Shown here: piece by piece, positions 28 through 22,867 of the stretch | Layout of the letters: each line of letters opens with the position of its first letter | Position numbering within the stretch: position 1 is the first letter of the stretch | Source: Candidatus Methanoperedens sp. | Lineage (GTDB): Archaea > Halobacteriota > Methanosarcinia > Methanosarcinales > Methanoperedenaceae | Direction: 5' to 3' | Length of the DNA: 36,967 bases | Assembly: GCA_027460465.1 (NCBI GenBank) | Contig: JAPZAV010000176.1 | Span: forward strand, 1-36,967 | Made by a program: the position numbers and the translations under genes | Notes under the pieces: generated by a model | Told to the model about the DNA's origin: nothing | Databases searched by the model: none | The model's input: only the letters and a program-made list of their open reading frames with translations

Positions 28-768
28 TTACTTGCTTCTGAAAGTATCGAGCAGCATCCTCACGTCTCCCGGTGGATAACCCGAATAGCTCTTGCTGAAA
101 TAACCAAAAACCTCCACAGAATCCTCAAAAAAACTTTTGATCTTCATTCCCCATTCCTCTATATCCCTGCTCCTATCTTTTTCAACTTTTCCAAGGGTCC
201 CCTTTATTTTATTCCTATCCCCTTCCCATCTAATATAGGTAAAATCAGTGGTTATGGTGTTCATCTGAGGCATCCATGGATGATCTATCAACGCAAGGGC
301 GACCCCATTATCTCTCAGCAGATCATAAAATTTCTCATCCAGCCAATTTTTATTCCTGACTTCGACCGCAAATCGTCTTTCTGGCAGACCTGCCAAAAAA
401 TCCTTCAATATTTCGAACTTTTCAGATTTGAACGCGGAAGGGAACTGCATAAGCAGAGGCCCAAGTTTATCTCCCAGTATTGACATATGTTCAATAAAGA
501 TCTCAACTTCCTCTTTACAATCCTGCAGCATTTTCAGATGCGTTATTTTGCGCGGAAACTTGGCTGTAAAAATAAAATCATCTGGTACATCTTCTTTCCA
601 GTTCCTCACAGTATCTCTGGATGGTATTCGATAAAATGTGTTGTTGATCTCAACAGTATCAAAATTCTTCACGTATTCATACAGCAGATCCTTTGACCCT
701 GAGGGATAAAAATTCCCTATCCAGAAATCATAACTCCATCCCATAGTGCCTATATGCATTTCTTCCAT
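28..768 (-). CDS. DUF72 (YecE-like) family protein
   Basis: The protein reads as a DUF72/YecE family member: an N-terminal IGTMGWSYDFWIGNFYP block, then VEINNTFYRIP and FTAKFPRKITH, and a TYIRWEGDR segment near the C terminus. The family is a TIM-barrel-like fold of unproven biochemical role. The track ORF begins at 807, but the ATG at 766-768 is preferred. It gives about 246 residues, lies one base after the ligase stop codon, and has GGGGTGAT just upstream. It is the last gene of the NHEJ operon, so it is probably co-transcribed with Ku and the ligase. A DNA-repair link is inferred from position only. Family call confident, function unknown. Confidence 0.85.
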   Translation of the reverse strand: MEEMHIGTMGWSYDFWIGNFYPSGSKDLLYEYVKNFDTVEINNTFYRIPSRDTVRNWKEDVPDDFIFTAKFPRKITHLKMLQDCKEEVEIFIEHMSILGDKLGPLLMQFPSAFKSEKFEILKDFLAGLPERRFAVEVRNKNWLDEKFYDLLRDNGVALALIDHPWMPQMNTITTDFTYIRWEGDRNKIKGTLGKVEKDRSRDIEEWGMKIKSFFEDSVEVFGYFSKSYSGYPPGDVRMLLDTFRSK

Positions 769-769
769 C

Positions 770-2158
770 TCAATCACCCCCTTTGAATAATAACCAGTTG
801 TTCTCACCTGCTTTCTTGAACTTTACGAGCACGTACCTTCCCTCCATCTTTTCCCCCTTGACTATGAACTCGATCTTATTCGCTTCCCAGATGATGGGCT
901 CGTATAAACCTTTATCCCATATCTTCACAGTCCCGGCCCCATACTGTCCTTCAGGGATTGTCCCTTCAAATTTACGATATTCCAGCGGATGGTCTTCTAC
1001 CTGCACAGCAAGCCTCCGGTCACCGCTTTTTTCTGGAACACCTTTAGGAACTGCCCAGCTCTTAAGCACCCCATCCCTTTCCAGTCTCAGATCGTAGTGG
1101 AGCCGGCGGGCATGGTGCTCCTGAACCACAAAGGATTTTCCCTTACCCTCTTCTTCCGACACAGGAGGCTCAGGTGTCCTGCTAAAATCCCGCCTGGCCG
1201 CATAGTCAGAAAGAGCCGGCCGTATCTGGTCGATCGTACATTCAAAAGGATTTTTGTCTTCCCTGAATCCTTTAAATACAGGAATACGAAGCTTTCCGTC
1301 ATCTGTTATGGACTGATAACCCACCTCGCACACAAGTTCGGGCCTTAACCAGGTTATTTCCCTGTCCGTATCCACTCCAGTAAGTGTTTTTTGCTCCACT
1401 TTATATTTATCCAGGGACAGTTTTAGATTTTCCCCGTCTTCCTGTGAAAAGCCTGTGCCGACTTTGCCGATAAAGACCGGTACTGCCGCATCATATAATC
1501 CAAGGATCAATGATCCAAAGGTCTTCTCCCTGTTACCTTCACCTTTAGTATAGCCGAAAATGACACAATCACATGTCTTTTCCTGCTTTATTTTCAGCCA
1601 GTAATTGCTCCTTTTTCCCGGTTCATATGAACTTTGCTTCTTCTTAGCCATTATACCTTCAAGACCTTTTCCCAGGGCGGCCTGATAATAGGCTTCCCCG
1701 GTCTTTTCAACAAATATAGAAAGGACAACGAATTTTCCTTCTTTCACACTATTCTTCAATATCCTCTTTCTCTCCATAAGAGGAATATCCAGAAGCTCCT
1801 CCCCATCCTTTTCCAGGATATCAAATATTATATAAGTAGCTGGAAATTTGCCAGACATATACGCGACCTCGTCCGGTTCGGTATTCTGTCTCCTCTGGTT
1901 GAGGATCTGGAAGTCAGCTTTTCCATCCTTCATAACAATTATTTCCCCGTCCAGTACCGTATCGCGGGTCAGATCATTCAGTTCTGAAAGTTCGGGAAAA
2001 CTTCCTGTCAATTCCTTATGGTTTCGGCTCCTGATACTGAGCTCTTCCTTAACATAACTGATAGCCCTTATGCCGTCCCATTTTACTTCAAAGATCCAGT
2101 CGTCAGAAGAAAATGGCGCATCTGCCGGATGGGCAAGCATCGGTTTATATTGTTTCAT
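770..2158 (-). CDS. ligD: ATP-dependent DNA ligase fused to LigD-type 3'-phosphoesterase
   Basis: This 462-residue protein has two parts. Residues 1 to about 310 are an ATP-dependent ligase core with the adenylation motif EVKWDGIR (Lys26), LDGEIIV, and an OB domain with FGSLILGLYD. Residues about 340-460 form a LigD phosphoesterase domain with HHARRLHYDLRLE, WAVPKG, EDHPLEY and EGTIPEGQYGAGTV, so the metal and phosphate-binding residues look intact. The enzyme should seal double-strand breaks after the phosphoesterase trims 3' ends. The usual bacterial LigD orders are Pol-PE-Lig or PE-Lig-Pol; here PE follows the ligase and the polymerase is a separate gene. Its start overlaps the Ku stop by four bases (ATGA), indicating coupled translation. 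Confidence 0.93.
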   Translation of the reverse strand: MKQYKPMLAHPADAPFSSDDWIFEVKWDGIRAISYVKEELSIRSRNHKELTGSFPELSELNDLTRDTVLDGEIIVMKDGKADFQILNQRRQNTEPDEVAYMSGKFPATYIIFDILEKDGEELLDIPLMERKRILKNSVKEGKFVVLSIFVEKTGEAYYQAALGKGLEGIMAKKKQSSYEPGKRSNYWLKIKQEKTCDCVIFGYTKGEGNREKTFGSLILGLYDAAVPVFIGKVGTGFSQEDGENLKLSLDKYKVEQKTLTGVDTDREITWLRPELVCEVGYQSITDDGKLRIPVFKGFREDKNPFECTIDQIRPALSDYAARRDFSRTPEPPVSEEEGKGKSFVVQEHHARRLHYDLRLERDGVLKSWAVPKGVPEKSGDRRLAVQVEDHPLEYRKFEGTIPEGQYGAGTVKIWDKGLYEPIIWEANKIEFIVKGEKMEGRYVLVKFKKAGENNWLLFKGGD

Positions 2159-2952
2159 TTGGCAAGCTGTTTAATCGTCTCTTGAAGGGCAACCATCAAT
2201 TCCTTGACTTCCTCTTTCTTTGGTACCTGGGCAACGAAGATCTCCCCCTTCATCTTCATTTGTATGAGCTTTTCTATCCTCTCTCTGTAACCATCCCTGT
2301 ACTCAGTTATATCAAATTCTCCGGAAAGTTCCTTTATTATCTTCCCGGCCAGTTCCATCTCGTTTTTTGAAGGATTTTTGAGTTTTGTAAGCTCTTCCAA
2401 TTCAACGGGGTTAGTAACCTCATTAGCATAATGCAGGGTTGTCAGGATTAAAGCCCCCTTATAAGCATATACAATTGCAGGATATTCCTTGGTCCTCAAT
2501 GTGACCTTCCCCAGTCCTGCTTTTCCCTCTTGCCGGATCACGGTCATCAACAAACTGTAGGCTTCTTCGCTTCTATCAGGGACAAGGATATATGACTTTT
2601 CAAAATATACCGGGTCGATGGAAAGCAAACTGATAAATTTATCGAGTTTGATCCTCTCGTCCGATTCGGGTCTTATGGCGTCCAGTTCCTCTTTCTTGAA
2701 AACAATGAACTCATTCTTTCGAATTTCGTATCCCTTTACGGTATCTTTCCAATCGATTACTTTCTCGTCTCTAATGCAGACCCTTTCGTATTTTAAGGGC
2801 TGCCCATCAACATTGTGCAATAGCCTGAATGAAAATGACTGATCACGGATCATGGTATAGAGCTTGACAGGGACATTGACAAGCCCGATCGTGATACTGC
2901 CGCTCCAGATTGACCTGCTGGACGGTTTGGCTGTGCTTTTTTCCTTTGCCAT
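2155..2952 (-). CDS. ku: Ku protein, DNA end-binding factor of NHEJ
   Basis: This is a 265-residue prokaryotic Ku. The N-terminal segment SIWSGSITIGLVNVPVKLY is the typical opening of the Ku core barrel. It is followed by FRLLHNVDGQPLKYERVC and, around residues 125-180, SYILVPDRSEEAYSLL and LTTLHYANEV. The length matches bacterial homodimeric Ku, with a short basic N-terminal tail and a lysine-containing C-terminal extension. Ku encircles DNA ends and recruits LigD. It sits between the polymerase and ligase genes, starts directly after the polymerase gene, and overlaps the ligase start by four bases. NHEJ is rare in archaea, so the operon was probably acquired from bacteria in the past; that is inference. 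Confidence 0.95.
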   Translation of the reverse strand: MAKEKSTAKPSSRSIWSGSITIGLVNVPVKLYTMIRDQSFSFRLLHNVDGQPLKYERVCIRDEKVIDWKDTVKGYEIRKNEFIVFKKEELDAIRPESDERIKLDKFISLLSIDPVYFEKSYILVPDRSEEAYSLLMTVIRQEGKAGLGKVTLRTKEYPAIVYAYKGALILTTLHYANEVTNPVELEELTKLKNPSKNEMELAGKIIKELSGEFDITEYRDGYRERIEKLIQMKMKGEIFVAQVPKKEEVKELMVALQETIKQLAK

Positions 2953-3816
2953 TTAATTCACTTCCAGTGACTGTTTATTTTCCATTAACCCCTCCCATGG
3001 ATCGCTCTTCCTTTTCAGGATAGTAAATATGTTGAACTCCTCAGGTCTTAATCCTTTCTTGAGTTCATTCCATTCAAGAGGTGTAGATACTGTTGCTTTC
3101 GGGGCAGCTCTCAGGCTGTAGGGAGCTATCATTGTCTTCCCCCTGGTATTCTGCAGGTAATCTATAAAGATCGTTCCAGGGTCTCTGGAGTTCCTGAATT
3201 CCGATACAACAAGCTCAGATTCTCTTGCCAGGAACTTCCCGAACTGATGAACGAATTCTCTTGTCTGCCTGAAATTATAACTTTGAATAATGGGCAGGAC
3301 AATATGCAGTCCTTTTTTCCCCGAGGTTTTGACAAATGATTTGAAGTTGAGTTCATCCAGTTTTTCTTTCAATGAAAGGGCGATTTCTATGACATCATCA
3401 AAGGAACAGGGAGGTTCGGGATCTATATCAAATAACAAAAGATCAGGTGTCTCATAATTATCGATCGTTGAAAGGGTGATGTTTATCTCAAGGGCTGCCA
3501 GATTCGCAAGCCATATCAGTGTATCCAGATCATTGCATACGATAAAGTTAATCTCGCGCTGTGCTGTCTCCGAGTATTTGTTGAAAGTTTCAACCCATGG
3601 TGGTATGCCAGGCGGCGCATCCTTTTCATAAAATCCTTCTTTGTCAATTCCATCTGGATATCTGTTCATGACTATTGCCCTGTTCTTCAGGAACTTAAGC
3701 ATCCGGGGAGCGATACTGATGTAATATTTGATGATGTCGGATTTTTCCAACCCCAACTCAGGATACAGTACCTTCTCCAGATTTGTGAATGATACTCTGG
3801 TGAGTTCGTCTATCAT
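2953..3816 (-). CDS. LigD-type polymerase domain protein (primase-polymerase, PolDom)
   Basis: A stand-alone LigD polymerase domain of the archaeo-eukaryotic primase superfamily, which fills gaps during end joining. Visible motifs are VLYPELGLEKSDIIKYY at the N terminus, the catalytic metal-binding FDIDPEPP, the SGKKGLHIVLP loop, and DYLQNTRGKTMIAPYSLR with the third acidic residue. The track ORF starts at 3888. The ATG at 3814-3816 is preferred because AAGGTGATC, which matches the archaeal anti-Shine-Dalgarno, precedes it and a TATA-like CTTTAATATT lies about 25 bases upstream. That gives 287 residues, usual for a PolDom. It is the first gene of the NHEJ operon and abuts Ku. Confidence 0.92.
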   Translation of the reverse strand: MIDELTRVSFTNLEKVLYPELGLEKSDIIKYYISIAPRMLKFLKNRAIVMNRYPDGIDKEGFYEKDAPPGIPPWVETFNKYSETAQREINFIVCNDLDTLIWLANLAALEINITLSTIDNYETPDLLLFDIDPEPPCSFDDVIEIALSLKEKLDELNFKSFVKTSGKKGLHIVLPIIQSYNFRQTREFVHQFGKFLARESELVVSEFRNSRDPGTIFIDYLQNTRGKTMIAPYSLRAAPKATVSTPLEWNELKKGLRPEEFNIFTILKRKSDPWEGLMENKQSLEVN

Positions 3817-3838
3817 GATCACCTTTTCAATATGCGGG

Positions 3839-3848
3839 AATATTAAAG
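3839..3848 (-). promoter_or_regulatory. Putative TATA box of the NHEJ operon
   Basis: On the minus strand CTTTAATATT lies 23-32 bases upstream of the preferred polymerase ATG. This is the spacing expected for an archaeal promoter with a very short leader. A second AT-rich stretch (ATAAATATTAAGG) lies further upstream. Confidence 0.4.
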
Positions 3849-4505
3849 AATTATTTGCAGCAACCTTAATATTTATCCTGGCTCTCATTCCTGTACCTTT
3901 TCTTGTTCAAGTATTGAAAGTGTCTCTGAGAATTTCTATCAACTTCTGCCTGAAACTTGCACATCCATCTCTTTCGGCTTCATAGCATCGCGCCTCAGTT
4001 GCTTTCTGATCCTATCCAGTGCGGCTCGGTACCGGCAGGTTCATCAGGCATTTTGTGCACAGAAGCTTTTTTAGATCTTAACACCGTCAAAGGTAGCGAA
4101 TTTGCACTCACCACCCCTCCACAAAAGCAGGATGAAACCTCCTGCAGCTCTCATGCTCCTCTCCCACCTTCTCGTAATACCGTTCCTTGACCGCCATAGT
4201 ATACCCTGCTGCAACAGCAGACAGCTTCCTGCTCCCTCCTGCATTGTCATTATGTTTCTTACCTGCTTCATTCAGAGCCATGCAGGTAACAAGATGCCCG
4301 GGATGCTCCTCTCCTGACCTGGTTGTTTATGTAACAATATCAGGACGTGAAAGTAAGCATCTGGCAATTAAAGCTGTGATATTATGCGGGAAACATGAAC
4401 CATGCGCCCTAATATAGTTACTAAAGATGAGGCAATCAGCTCTACAACAGGCATGCATTGAATGGATTCATTCGAGTATTAAGATTCAACGTCGAAATCG
4501 TCGAT
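3849..4505. other. Gene-poor interval
   Basis: No convincing gene is seen between the NHEJ operon and the small glycine-zipper gene. ORFs here are short, lack ribosome sites and have no recognisable motifs. A 57-codon minus-strand frame at 4108-4281 reads somewhat protein-like and could be a fragment of a lost gene. Confidence 0.5.
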
Positions 4506-14088: not shown

Positions 14089-14379
14089 TCAAAGCTTTTC
14101 CAGCTTCTCTATTCCAACCTTCTTTACAAACGGCTTATTGATCTTATCCGGCATCCATGCTGGTTTATTCTTGGGAGCACTGATGGTTTCTTTCCATGCT
14201 TTGAATATGTGAATCTTCTTTGTGCCTCGCTCTCTCAGTCTGATCTCTACAGGGCTACTTTTGGTTCCCCCTATCCTGTTTGCGGCTTTAAGGGCAGCCT
14301 GACGTGGCTGGCGTCCGGTAAATACACCATCCTCAGAGCCATTCTTATGCCGTAAGATAAAATTTTTTATTTCTGTCAT
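14089..14379 (-). CDS. Archaeal chromosomal DNA-bending protein MC1
   Basis: A close match to MC1, the abundant monomeric DNA-bending protein of Methanosarcinales. The segments FILRHKNGSEDGVFTGRQPR, AALKAANRIGG, IRLRERGTKKIHIFKAWKE, PAWMPDKINKPFVKK reproduce the known family across its whole length (about 96 residues). It compacts and bends DNA in the nucleoid. The ATG at 14377-14379 is chosen; the track start is a TTG three codons upstream. GAGGAG lies upstream, and ATTATAAA at 14438-14445 is a plausible TATA box. This gene is a strong taxonomic marker for the window. Confidence 0.97.
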   Translation of the reverse strand: MTEIKNFILRHKNGSEDGVFTGRQPRQAALKAANRIGGTKSSPVEIRLRERGTKKIHIFKAWKETISAPKNKPAWMPDKINKPFVKKVGIEKLEKL

Positions 14380-14437
14380 ATCTCTCAACTTCTCCTCGTA
14401 GCATTTTATGCCACGGTCTCCTTATTGACATTATCCC

Positions 14438-14445: not shown

Positions 14446-14548
14446 GCTTATTTACATGATAAAACATGTTAGTTCTCTATTGCGATTTAATATGCATTGA
14501 TTATTAAAATGAATAATATATTTACATGAATTTTCTAAAGCAAAAACT

Positions 14549-14557
14549 ACTTAAATC
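14549..14557 (+). promoter_or_regulatory. Putative TATA box of the 21-aa peptide gene
   Basis: ACTTAAATC preceded by an A-rich BRE-like CAAAAA stretch lies 56-64 bases before the peptide ATG. It would place transcription start near 14580 and give a leader of about 33 bases containing a strong ribosome site. Confidence 0.4.
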
Positions 14558-14612
14558 ATAGATATTAATGTAATTAATGGAAGGGTTAAACATAACTCAA
14601 GGAGGTAACAAA

Positions 14613-14678
14613 ATGAAGATCGTAAAAGTAAAGAAAATCGTAAGAGGAAGCTGCAAGTGTCATTCATCCTGCGTGTGA
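14613..14678 (+). CDS. 21-residue cysteine-rich peptide
   Basis: Not in the ORF track. The frame encodes MKIVKVKKIVRGSCKCHSSC followed by Val and a TGA stop: a strongly basic N-terminal half and a C-terminal C-x-C-H-x2-C cluster. AAGGAGGT sits five bases before the ATG, the best ribosome site in this part of the window. A TATA-like box lies upstream and a T6 run follows about 20 bases after the stop, so the unit has promoter, ribosome site, ORF and terminator of its own. It could be a metal-binding peptide or a leader-core precursor of a modified peptide; no maturase gene is in the window. No family is recognised. Confidence 0.6.
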   Translation: MKIVKVKKIVRGSCKCHSSCV

Positions 14679-14695
14679 GAGATAACAATTAAGAT

Positions 14696-14705
14696 ATTCT
14701 TTTTT
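14696..14705 (+). terminator. Oligo-T terminator after the peptide gene
   Basis: ATTCTTTTTT lies 18-27 bases after the peptide stop codon, the typical T-rich signal for archaeal intrinsic termination. It falls just before the end of the convergent rhodanese gene. Confidence 0.45.
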
Positions 14706-14706
14706 G

Positions 14707-15111
14707 CTATTTCACCACTTCAAACCCGGCATTAGTCCACTCCATAATTCCGCCTTTCATGTTGTAAACTTCCTTAAAATCATTACTTATCAGTATTTCA
14801 CTTGCCCTGGTGCTGCGAACTCCTGTTCTGCAGTACACCAGTATCTTTCTGTCCCTGGGTATCTCATCGAGCCTATTATTCAATTCCTGCACCGGGACAA
14901 GAACTGATCCGTTTATATGCCCTGTCTCGTATTCTTCCAGGGTGCGAACATCAAGGATAAATACTTCACCTCTATCTATCATTCCCTTTCCCTCCTGGAC
15001 TGTGATATCAATGAACTGTGCTTTATCCGAACGATCAGCGGGTCCGGTACATCCGGACACTGCAGTCAGCAGCAAGAGCGCAAGTACAGCAGAGAAGATG
15101 TGCATCCTCAT
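14707..15111 (-). CDS. Rhodanese-domain lipoprotein
   Basis: A 134-residue exported protein: a signal peptide with lipobox AVSGC (lipidated Cys21) followed by one rhodanese domain with [19 protein letters not shown], the active-site loop VYCRTGVRS (Cys94) and a C-terminal [14 protein letters not shown]. It is probably anchored outside the membrane and handles sulfane sulfur, although the donor is unknown. GGTGAT precedes the ATG. It is divergent from aroC, with which it shares a 67-base region containing one near-symmetrical TATA element. Confidence 0.9.
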
Positions 15112-15178: not shown

Positions 15179-16285
15179 ATGTCAGGAAATACCTTTGGTA
15201 CCCTGTTTCGGATAATGACCTGGGGCGAGAGCCACGGCCCTGCTGTGGGTGTGGTCATAGATGGCTGTCCTGCAGGTCTCAGGCTCGGAGAAGAGGATAT
15301 CCAGAAGGAACTTGACAGGCGCCGTCCAGGTCAGAGCGAGATAACCACACCCAGGAAAGAAGAGGATAAAGTGGAGATCCTCTCAGGGATATTTCAGGGA
15401 AAGACCACAGGTACGCCGATATCCACAATGGTCAGAAACAGGGACGTTGATCCTGGAAAATACGAATCATTGCGCAGCATTCCCCGCCCGGGGCATGCTG
15501 ATATCACATATGAGATGAAATACGGGTTCAGAGACTGGCGCGGAGGCGGCAGGTCATCAGCGCGAGAGACCACAGGTCGGGTGGCGGCAGGTGCGATCGC
15601 AAAAAAGATCCTGGCTTTATACGGGATCGAGATACTTGGCCACGTGGTTGAGCTCGGAGGGATCAGGGCAGGATCTGTAAGTATAGAAGATATCCGCAAA
15701 AATACGGAAAAAAACCCTGTGAGATGCGCGGATCCTGATGCTGCTGTGGAAATGGCCGCGATGATCCATGCTGTGAGAAGCGAGGGCGACAGCACAGGCG
15801 GGATAGTCGAGATAATAAGCACTGGCATGCCTGCAGGTATTGGAGAGCCTGTGTTCGAAAAGCTCGGCGCAGAGCTTGCGCATGCACTGATGAGCATAGG
15901 AGCAGTAAAAGGAGTAGAGATAGGCGCTGGTTTTAAGTCTGCGCTCATGAAAGGAAGCGAGATGAACGACCCGATCGCGATCTGTGATGGGAAGCTCAGG
16001 ATGCTTTCCAACAAAGCGGGCGGGATCCTTGGAGGAATCAGCAGCGGTGAGCCTGTTATATGCAGGATCGCAGTGAAACCCACTCCTTCGATCTCAAAAG
16101 AGCAGCATTCTGTTGACCTGAGAATTATGAAAGATACTAAAATAAAAATACAGGGACGTCATGATCCCTCGATTCCTCCCAGGATAGTCCCGGTCGCTGA
16201 AGCCATGGTTGCGCTTGTACTTGTTGATCAGATGATGATGGGTGGATTCATAAATCGGAGTAGAATAAATGAAGTTCGATCCTGA
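15179..16285 (+). CDS. aroC: Chorismate synthase
   Basis: A 368-residue chorismate synthase that converts EPSP to chorismate with reduced FMN. The family motifs are clear: [76 protein letters not shown] and a C-terminal [19 protein letters not shown]. The track ORF begins at 14810, but the conserved N terminus fixes the ATG at 15179; the extra part is antisense to the rhodanese gene. It heads an operon with sepS, shikimate kinase, chorismate mutase and purA, and probably has leaderless mRNA. Confidence 0.98.
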
Positions 16286-17882
16286 AGAAATCAAGGAAGC
16301 AGCAAAGAGAGACTTTGATGCTGCATGGCAGGAAGGGAAAAAATATGTTTCAGGCAGAGGAATCAATGAACAGTACCCTCGCATCTCACTGAGATACGGC
16401 AAACCGCATCCTGTTTTTGAAACAGTCCAGCGCCTGCGCGAGGCATATATGAGGCTCGGTTTTGAAGAGTGCATGAACCCGATCATCGTGGAGGACAGGG
16501 ATATTCACAGGCAGTTCGGGTACGAGGCGCTCGCCGTTCTTGACAGGTGCTTCTATATAGGGGGTCTTCCAAGACCGAATGTCGGAATTTCGGACGAGAG
16601 AATAACTGAGATAAAAAGCATCCTTGGAAACCTGGATGATGAGAGTGTGGAAAAGATAAGGCAGATCCTTCATTCTTATAAAAAAGGCGAGATCGAAGGG
16701 GATGACCTGGTGCCTGAGATCTCATCTGAACTTGAGGTCTCAGATGCAAGGGTGGCTTTGATGATAGACCGCGTATTCCCTGAATTCAAGTCCCTTGTCC
16801 CGGTTTGCTCCCAGAACACGCTTCGAAGCCATATGACCTCAGGCTGGTTCATCAGCCTTGGTGAGATGTGCGATTATAGCACTGTTCCTCTGAAGCTTTT
16901 CTCTGTAGATAGATGCTTCAGGCGAGAGCAGGCAGAGGATGCCACCAGGCTCATGGCTTATTATTCAGCGTCCTGTGTGATAATGGACGAGAACGTGAGC
17001 ATCGAGGACGGGAAAGCAGTAGCAGCGGGCTTGCTTTCGCAGTTCGGTTTCTCGAATTTCATTTTCAGACCTGATGATAAGAGGAGCAAGTATTATGTGC
17101 CTGATACCCAGACCGAGGTATTTGCATATCATCCTGAACTTGTGGGCTCGAAGACAAAGTACAGGGACGGATGGGTCGAGGTTGCGACGTTCGGCATTTA
17201 CTCGCCTCTTGCGCTTGCGCAGTACAATATCCCTTATCCTGTGATGAACCTGGGCATGGGTGTGGAGCGGCTTGCGATGATACTGCATGATTCCACAGAT
17301 GTACGCGCTCTCACGTACCCTCAGTTCCAGTACAGGACAGACCGGGTGATGTCTGACAGCGAGATAGCTGGCATGATATATGCGGATGAGGTTCCGGCGA
17401 CAGAAACCGGGAATGAGATACAGAAGGCCATAGTTGTTGCCTGCGAAAAATATGGGAATACGCAGAGCCCGTGCGAGTTCGTTGCGTGGGATGGGCAGCT
17501 TTTTGACAGGAATATCAGGGTGAAAGTTGTCGAACCGGAGGAGAACACAAAGCTCTGCGGCCCTGCTGCGATGAACGAGATCGTCTGCTACAGGAACGAT
17601 ATCCTGGGACTTCCGCGAACATCGAGATGGGACGAGGTGTTCAAGAACGGTGTAAGTACAGGGATAAGATATATTGATGCGTTTGCAGCGCGATGCGCTA
17701 AGGAGATAGAGGAGGCAGTACGAAATGGCACAGGCTCTGAGACCAGGGTGAGGATCATCAAGGTGCCTTCTGAGATAAATATCAGGATAGATCCGATCGC
17801 GCAGAGGTATATCACGGGATTGAAGAAAAAGATCGATACACGAGGACCTGTTTTCACAACGGTCAGGATGGAAATAATATGA
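16269..17882 (+). CDS. sepS: O-phosphoseryl-tRNA(Cys) synthetase (SepRS)
   Basis: A 537-residue class II synthetase that charges tRNA-Cys with O-phosphoserine, the first step of the indirect Cys-tRNA route of methanogens. Visible are the family N terminus [20 protein letters not shown], the [17 protein letters not shown] segment, motif 2 [15 protein letters not shown] (about residue 214) and motif 3 [11 protein letters not shown] (about 326). The length is normal. The start overlaps aroC by 17 bases and has GGAG eight bases upstream. The partner SepCysS, which converts Sep-tRNA to Cys-tRNA, is not in the window. Confidence 0.97.
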
Positions 17883-21808: not shown

Positions 21809-22867
21809 ATGGGAAAAGACTGGAGAATAATACAAAGAAGGGGACAGCTTAGGATTTATCAGAAAGATGAAAGAGATTTTAAAATGAAATTCAAACTTTC
21901 ACTTTTGAATCTTATCCTTCAGCTTCAAGATGTAGGGAAAGCATGCAAAATCATGTCGATTCCAGTGACTACGGCTTATAGGTGGATAAATATCTGGAAT
22001 GAGGATGGGAAAGAAGGATTAAAAAAAGAACAAGGAAAAGGAGGCGGAAAACCATCAAAAATGAGTGAAGAACAATTTAAAAAACTTGAGAATATTTTAA
22101 GGGAAGAGAAGGAATGGTGGATAACCAAAGAAGTGAGAATACTCATAAAAGAAAGATTTGATATAGAGTATTCAGAGGATCAGGTCGTAAGAATACTCAA
22201 AAAATTCAAAATGAATCATTCTAAGCCGTTCCCTCATGATTATAGAAAACCTGACAATGCAAAAGAACTCTTGGATAATCAGCTAAAATTACTTTTTGAA
22301 TTGCTGGAAAAAGAAAAAATACCAAAGGATAAAGTAGCAATTGGATTTTTAGATGAAGCCAGTCCTCAAACCACTGCAAATACTGTGAGGGTTTGGAGTT
22401 TTGGCAAACCGAAAATTAAGAAAAATACGACTAAAATGAGGGCAAACACTATAGGCTATTATGCTATCCTGGGAAATAGTAAAGAAGGATTCTTACAAAA
22501 TTCTAAAAAAGAAAGCATAAGAGACTTTCTAATTGAGATCAAAAAAGCAAATGAAGAATATAAAGCTATAGTGGTAGTGATAGATAATTTTCCATCCCAT
22601 AAGAGTACGATCGTGAAAGATACTGCGAAAACGTTGGGCATTCACCTTGTTTTTCTACCTCCATATTCACCTGATATTAACCCTATAGAGTACATATGGA
22701 AAAGCGTAAAAAGAGTACTTTCTTTGTCTTTTGTTAAAACGGAAGATGAATTGAAAAACCTAATTCAATCTAATTTTAAAACTTTTTCGAAGAGTTTAAG
22801 TTTTGCACTTGGATGGATTGGATTGTTCCTGTTTGGTACAAATTATTATCATATGTTATGCGGGTAA
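21809..22867 (+). CDS. IS630 family transposase
   Basis: A 352-residue IS630/Tc1-mariner-type transposase. The N-terminal helix-turn-helix region includes KACKIMSIPVTTAYRWINIW and a second winged segment around EKEWWITKEVRILIKERF. The DDE catalytic triad is seen in IGFLDEASPQ, VVVIDNFPSHK and PPYSPDINPIEYIWK. The length is complete and there is no frameshift. It lies inside an element with TA-flanked inverted ends. Its codon use is strongly A-rich compared with the housekeeping genes around it, consistent with transfer. Confidence 0.95.
   Translation: MGKDWRIIQRRGQLRIYQKDERDFKMKFKLSLLNLILQLQDVGKACKIMSIPVTTAYRWINIWNEDGKEGLKKEQGKGGGKPSKMSEEQFKKLENILREEKEWWITKEVRILIKERFDIEYSEDQVVRILKKFKMNHSKPFPHDYRKPDNAKELLDNQLKLLFELLEKEKIPKDKVAIGFLDEASPQTTANTVRVWSFGKPKIKKNTTKMRANTIGYYAILGNSKEGFLQNSKKESIRDFLIEIKKANEEYKAIVVVIDNFPSHKSTIVKDTAKTLGIHLVFLPPYSPDINPIEYIWKSVKRVLSLSFVKTEDELKNLIQSNFKTFSKSLSFALGWIGLFLFGTNYYHMLCG

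Follow-up and report, generated by a model that had tools for sequence, protein, structure and literature searches.

Does a 21-codon open frame beside a rhodanese gene in an archaeal genome encode a peptide and, if so, what becomes of its product? The frame lies in the window, by which we mean the whole 36,967-nucleotide stretch analysed here, from contig C176 of the 2.87-Mb genome of a Candidatus Methanoperedens sp. (G000). The original prediction described a self-contained transcription unit comprising a TATA-like box, a Shine-Dalgarno sequence, the 21-codon frame and a T6 run, and all four were confirmed by direct reading (Table 1). The downstream rhodanese gene, on the minus strand and ending at 14707, is convergent, as had been claimed.

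Table 1. Features of the peptide locus in the window and of the associated genes on contig C1 of the same genome
Feature	Position	Strand	Evidence or remark
MC1 chromosomal protein, upstream neighbour	14089..14388	-	PF05854, 133 bits
Core promoter-like element ACTACTTAAAT (BRE/TATA-like)	14546..14556	+	Read from sequence; similar element aligns in six orthologues
TATA-like box CTTAAAT, within ACTACTTAAAT	14550-14556	+	Sequence
Shine-Dalgarno AAGGAGGT	14599-14606	+	Sequence; GGAGGT invariant among six orthologues
Peptide A gene, 21 aa, MKIVKVKKIVRGSCKCHSSCV	14613..14678	+	Profile match E=4.3e-9; family alignment A1; pN/pS 0.25
T6 run, putative terminator	14700..14705	+	Sequence; abuts 3' end of convergent rhodanese gene
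Lipoprotein rhodanese, loop CRTGVRS (catalytic-type)	14707..15111	-	PF00581, 77 bits; convergent to peptide A
Protein B (L243)	C1:3546-3716		Overlaps radical SAM gene start
Radical SAM enzyme	C1:3703-4887		Overlapped by B

The peptide gene and its relatives

Translation would begin at ATG 14613, with a Shine-Dalgarno spacing of 6 nt, and end at TGA 14676-14678. The product, peptide A, comprises a leader-like part, MKIVKVKKIVRG, and a core-like part, SCKCHSSCV. In six orthologues from the same genomic context, the TATA-like box, the GGAGGT and the frame are kept while the other flanks diverge; the DNA between the TATA-like element and GGAGGT varies in both length and sequence. The terminator region of these orthologues is T-rich, with strict conservation absent, and the putative terminator consists of the T-run only, with no conserved hairpin shown; the convergent rhodanese gene may use it too. 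When the 162-bp unit served as a BLASTN query, the best matches in related genomes covered only about bases 51-125, which correspond to the Shine-Dalgarno sequence through codon 20, and each match translated in the same frame, the start often being GTG or TTG. An Rfam search of the window returned tRNA only.

Judged from its sequence, the 21-codon frame is a genuine gene, and its product falls in a family of very small, cysteine-rich archaeal peptides not filed before, with members of 20-22 residues and the pattern MKIxKVxKxxxGxCKCxxSC[x]. Alignment A1, of 35 distinct peptides of 20-21 residues, gives the consensus MKIxKVxKxxxGxCKCHSSCx; members of 22 residues occur at L061 and L210. Residues C14, K15, C16 and C20 are invariant in the alignment and M1, K5, G12 and S19 are conserved at 90% or above; the lysine-rich character of the N-terminal half is kept as well, whereas the tail histidine of peptide A is replaced elsewhere by N, S, G, A or K. 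For a set of 39 distinct genes, almost all of which come from Methanoperedenaceae, pN/pS amounts to 0.25 overall, 0.38 for residues 2-12 and 0.13 for residues 13-21: nonsynonymous change is suppressed, and purifying selection at the codon level is strongest in the core. The original prediction had been staked on conservation of the frame and on unequal rates of synonymous and nonsynonymous change, and both were found.

A profile search of a phylum sample of 392 genomes found the peptide in 25 (best E 6e-11 to 2.4e-5); five further genomes follow at E 0.01-0.04, with partial matches that look like chance. In Methanoperedenaceae, the family of the window (f1, 34 genomes), 29 genomes carry one to three copies each, and the window gene is the sole match in its genome. 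Candidates from pattern searches were rejected: matches outside the family, in a Micrarchaeota locus (L002) and in G236, G075, G163, G153 and G207, were internal to other frames or without a suitable start, as were those on C156 and C142 of the window's genome, and none of 12 matches in viral contigs has the N-terminal half of the family. Plasmids gave no tblastn match to the peptide, and no NCBIfam model matched the peptides at E<=10. Frames of 21 codons are common by themselves, which is what a chance open frame would require; profile matches at E 1e-4 to 1e-11 confined to 25 genomes of the phylum sample, selection on codons and a conserved Shine-Dalgarno sequence leave that explanation a negligible probability.

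A radical SAM/SPASM enzyme and protein B

Some peptide copies adjoin a gene for a radical SAM protein of about 395 residues. In the same 392 phylum genomes the enzyme is present in 25 at E<=1e-40, the level to which matches were collected, the gap to paralogues lying outside that range. The two genome sets are identical (25/25, and no other genome in the sample): G000, G007, G016, G032, G224, G057, G067, G076, G083, G120, G130, G165, G182, G187, G192, G202, G221, G231, G241, G246, G251, G276, G291, G300 and G354. The corresponding Fisher p is 5e-40, uncorrected for shared ancestry. Among the 34 Methanoperedenaceae genomes, 27 have both peptide and enzyme, five have neither and two have the peptide only; these two are 84% and 91% complete, and one, G018, carries a fragment of the protein B gene at a contig edge. 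The distribution is patchy: the pair occurs in 17 of 55 genomes, by our count, of a family that we take to be Archaeoglobaceae-like (f8), and two Methanoperedenaceae genomes rated 96% complete (G011 and G024) lack both. In the enzyme tree, Methanoperedenaceae and the same-order genome G224 separate from f8 and a further family, f29, and the enzyme is thus consistent with mainly vertical descent. Viral contigs contained no relative of the enzyme.

The enzyme has a radical SAM core (PF04055, 72.5 bits against a cut-off of 29.5), with the CX3CX2C motif C106xxxC110xxC113 at least 95% conserved among 26 enzymes. The best PDB match of the whole protein is SkfB, a sactipeptide thioether maturase (E 3.9e-15). 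Seven further cysteines, C304, C320, C354, C357, C363, C367 and C385, are conserved in the 26 sequences in the layout C304...G315xxxxC320...C354x2C357x5C363x3C367x17C385. Because this layout agrees with the SPASM pattern described in the literature, Cx2-4Cx5Cx2-3Cx14-18C accompanied by two remote cysteines (PMC5682303), and TIGR04085 scores 34.8 bits against a cut-off of 27, we assign a SPASM domain. The N-terminal region of about 85 residues (LRxLExPxxYxxxxDxLYELDEEAFEFLxxCDG...) reached no Pfam or NCBIfam cut-off; its top PDB match is PqqD (5sxy), a weak one at E=0.64, and Pfam PqqD matched at 0.071 at best, in one of 16 members.

A third gene accompanies the enzyme. Its product, protein B, has about 50-66 residues and the signature ICxxCxFY...LECxAFK, with eight invariant columns including three cysteines. 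No Pfam or NCBIfam model matched it above cut-off, and a PDB search gave chance-level matches only. Within Methanoperedenaceae, B is found in 28 of 34 genomes, in step with the enzyme. In f29 and in almost every f8 genome that has the system, a peptide of 19-21 residues (for example MKVSKVERRDTGICKCGDSC) is encoded directly upstream of the enzyme, with B between the two and overlapping the enzyme start (order A-B-rSAM). The same order occurs in Methanoperedenaceae at L073, L117, L218 and L239, and the order B-rSAM-A at L070, L072, L108 and L110, as well as at L063 of G224. A precursor gene is therefore linked to a gene of peptide-modifying type, both in operons and by 25/25 co-occurrence, the linkage expected of a ribosomally synthesized and post-translationally modified peptide (RiPP). 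The window's genome has one gene of each kind, with B and the enzyme on another contig, C1.

Neighbours of the orphan copies

Copies away from the operon, like that of the window, have mixed neighbours, and the functional theme is thus not uniform. A convergent lipoprotein rhodanese lies 21-29 nt from orphan copies in the window and at L107, L109, L121 and L122, and a membrane-anchored rhodanese follows the peptide on the same strand, 29-31 nt downstream, at L055, L058, L038 and L062, the latter group having, at some loci, thioredoxin-like, DUF411 and Met-rich genes nearby as well. From this gene arrangement, the rhodanese is a possible functional partner of the peptide. Copper P-type ATPases are encoded near six copies (L056, L059, L064, L072, L123 and L257). 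The MC1 neighbour is common to L071, L107 and L121, where it reflects conserved synteny only. Other orphan copies adjoin HemB-, PspA/HtpX- or MacB-like genes, named from reading the sequences. Two such contexts recur: L067, L114 and L116 lie beside NrpR/DUF128-like regulator and HemB-like genes, and L111, L124 and L066 near PspA-, PspA-associated- and HtpX-like (membrane stress) genes. Neither a leader peptidase nor a dedicated exporter is a recurrent companion. The multihaem-cytochrome domain PF09699 is enriched in carriers (15/25, against 38/367 non-carriers), also within f8 (9/17 carriers against 4/38, p=0.0014).

Elsewhere in the window, reading of translations by eye suggested several other genes. 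A bacterial-type NHEJ-like cluster, unusual in archaea, spans 28-3888 on the minus strand and comprises Ku (2155-2952), a LigD-like polymerase (2953-3888) and an ATP-dependent ligase with a phosphoesterase-like part (770-2158). An O-phosphoseryl-tRNA synthetase (SepRS)-like gene (16269-17882, plus strand) lies in an apparent operon alongside aroC-like and archaeal shikimate-kinase-like genes, and an IS630-type transposase-like gene with helix-turn-helix and DDE-like regions lies at 21809-22867 on the plus strand.

A proposed precursor system and its alternatives

We propose that peptide A is, with high probability, the RiPP-type precursor of an archaeal three-gene system, its tail being modified by the radical SAM/SPASM enzyme. 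That the peptide might be the precursor of a modified product had been suggested at the outset, and co-occurrence with the enzyme in all 25 carriers of the phylum sample, together with both operon orders, strongly supports it. The lysine-rich first half, MKIVKVKKIVRG, would act as the leader by which the RRE/PqqD-like N-terminal region of the enzyme recognises and binds the peptide, and the enzyme would modify the C-terminal GxCKCHSSCx, with electrons relayed through the SPASM clusters. Given three invariant cysteines and the relationship to SkfB, cysteine thioether links of the sacti or ranthi type are the most likely modification. Since peptide A is encoded only in the window, and B and the enzyme on contig C1, the enzyme at C1:3703-4887 would act in trans on this single precursor. 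The unit may hence be called self-contained for transcription but not for maturation, the likely maturase being encoded elsewhere in the genome. In the weakest step of the scheme, the product might be exported and would, together with the neighbouring extracytoplasmic rhodanese, take part in handling metal (copper) or sulfane sulfur; such a metal or sulfane-sulfur role outside the membrane is plausible, at somewhat less than even chances.

Could the peptide instead work as encoded? Three cysteines and one histidine within eight residues could make CKCHSSC a miniature metallothionein or metallochaperone for Cu(I) or Zn(II), the enzyme being linked for some other reason, and copper ATPases, DUF411 (CGCC), HMA/CopZ-like and Met-rich small proteins are encoded near several copies. 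Against this, the cysteines are invariant but the histidine is not conserved, and K15 and S19, unusual as metal ligands, vary little or not at all; such a protein would not be expected to keep a basic N-terminal half, and the peptide occurs in step with the enzyme, genome by genome. We regard an unmodified metal binder as very improbable. A similarly low likelihood attaches to a precursor consumed into a small redox cofactor, in the manner of PqqA for PQQ or MftA for mycofactocin. PqqA is comparably short, the RRE-like region and SPASM enzyme would suit such a pathway, and carriers are enriched for PF09699; conservation, however, extends over all three cysteines, the lysine and the serine and does not centre on a Glu-Tyr or Val-Tyr pair, a cofactor would not usually have several scattered precursors in one genome, and no protease or oxidase gene recurs.

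A Cys-responsive attenuation leader (uORF) would account for a Cys-rich frame preceding B and the enzyme in Archaeoglobaceae-like genomes. Yet the peptide lies downstream of B-rSAM at L063, L070, L072, L108 and L110, faces a convergent gene as an orphan in the window and its relatives, and has a lysine-rich, Cys-free N-terminal half conserved at the amino-acid level. Because the gene can follow the operon or sit far from it, we exclude attenuation, to which we would assign scarcely any likelihood; the earlier argument to this effect, from the convergent neighbour, was right and is strengthened by the downstream and orphan copies.

Among known systems, a modified-tail precursor most recalls the sactipeptide pairs SkfA/SkfB and SboA/AlbA, which share a small precursor with a Cys-containing core and an enzyme with CX3CX2C and SPASM regions. 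It differs from them in a precursor of only 20-22 residues and unrelated sequence, in the extra partner B, and in precursors dispersed in the genome with no adjacent immunity gene or dedicated exporter; here the thioether is only predicted, and the enzyme falls below every cut-off of the curated NCBIfam maturases (WgkB, ScmE, GeoRSP, mycofactocin, SkfB, AlbA and others) among the matches listed, the best of which scored 109.9 bits against 650. With PqqA/D/E and MftA/B/C it has in common a very short precursor and a SPASM enzyme, whose N-terminal region weakly resembles PqqD, but the core here is Cys-rich without a crosslinked aromatic/acidic pair, the RRE-like part is fused to the enzyme, and the mycofactocin maturase model, with a cut-off of 265 bits, scored 89.8-99.2. 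The methanogen peptide-modifying system TIGR04083 is likewise archaeal and combines a radical SAM enzyme with a Cys-rich peptide, TIGR04165. Unlike in that system, the peptides here lack an NCBIfam match (see above), and the C-terminal region of the enzyme reaches 15.8 bits where the TIGR04083 cut-off is 300. Bufferins, bacterial peptides modified by MNIO (DUF692) enzymes, contain cysteine and are proposed to chelate copper (PMC12452194); with a radical SAM enzyme here, any likeness would be in proposed function only.

The motif CKCHSSC did not occur in the literature searched. Few archaeal RiPPs have been characterised by experiment (PMC12144867), and the same paper makes no mention of the groups that carry the peptide system. 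A 2022 network study of rSAM-SPASM proteins (PMC9062424) analysed 118 clusters, 6.5% of the sequences being archaeal; the cluster of the present enzyme may be one of them, with the peptide family left undescribed.

If true, these findings would define a largely vertically maintained radical SAM peptide system in the Methanoperedenaceae, which oxidise methane anaerobically, as well as among Archaeoglobaceae-like archaea. Gene models are supplied for peptides so short that annotation pipelines tend to overlook them, and the system, two proteins and a 21-residue peptide, is small enough for direct reconstitution. We speculate, tentatively and with the odds against it, that GxCKCxxSC marks a new archaeal class of radical-SAM-made cysteine peptide that would carry metal or sulfane sulfur for redox chemistry outside the cytoplasm, alongside rhodanese, thioredoxin-like and copper proteins. 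In archaea that oxidise methane anaerobically, and in others rich in multihaem cytochromes, a single maturase would then process several precursors dispersed over each genome. Through its association with rhodanese, copper and multihaem genes, the system would also allow a part in extracytoplasmic redox or metal handling to be put to the test.
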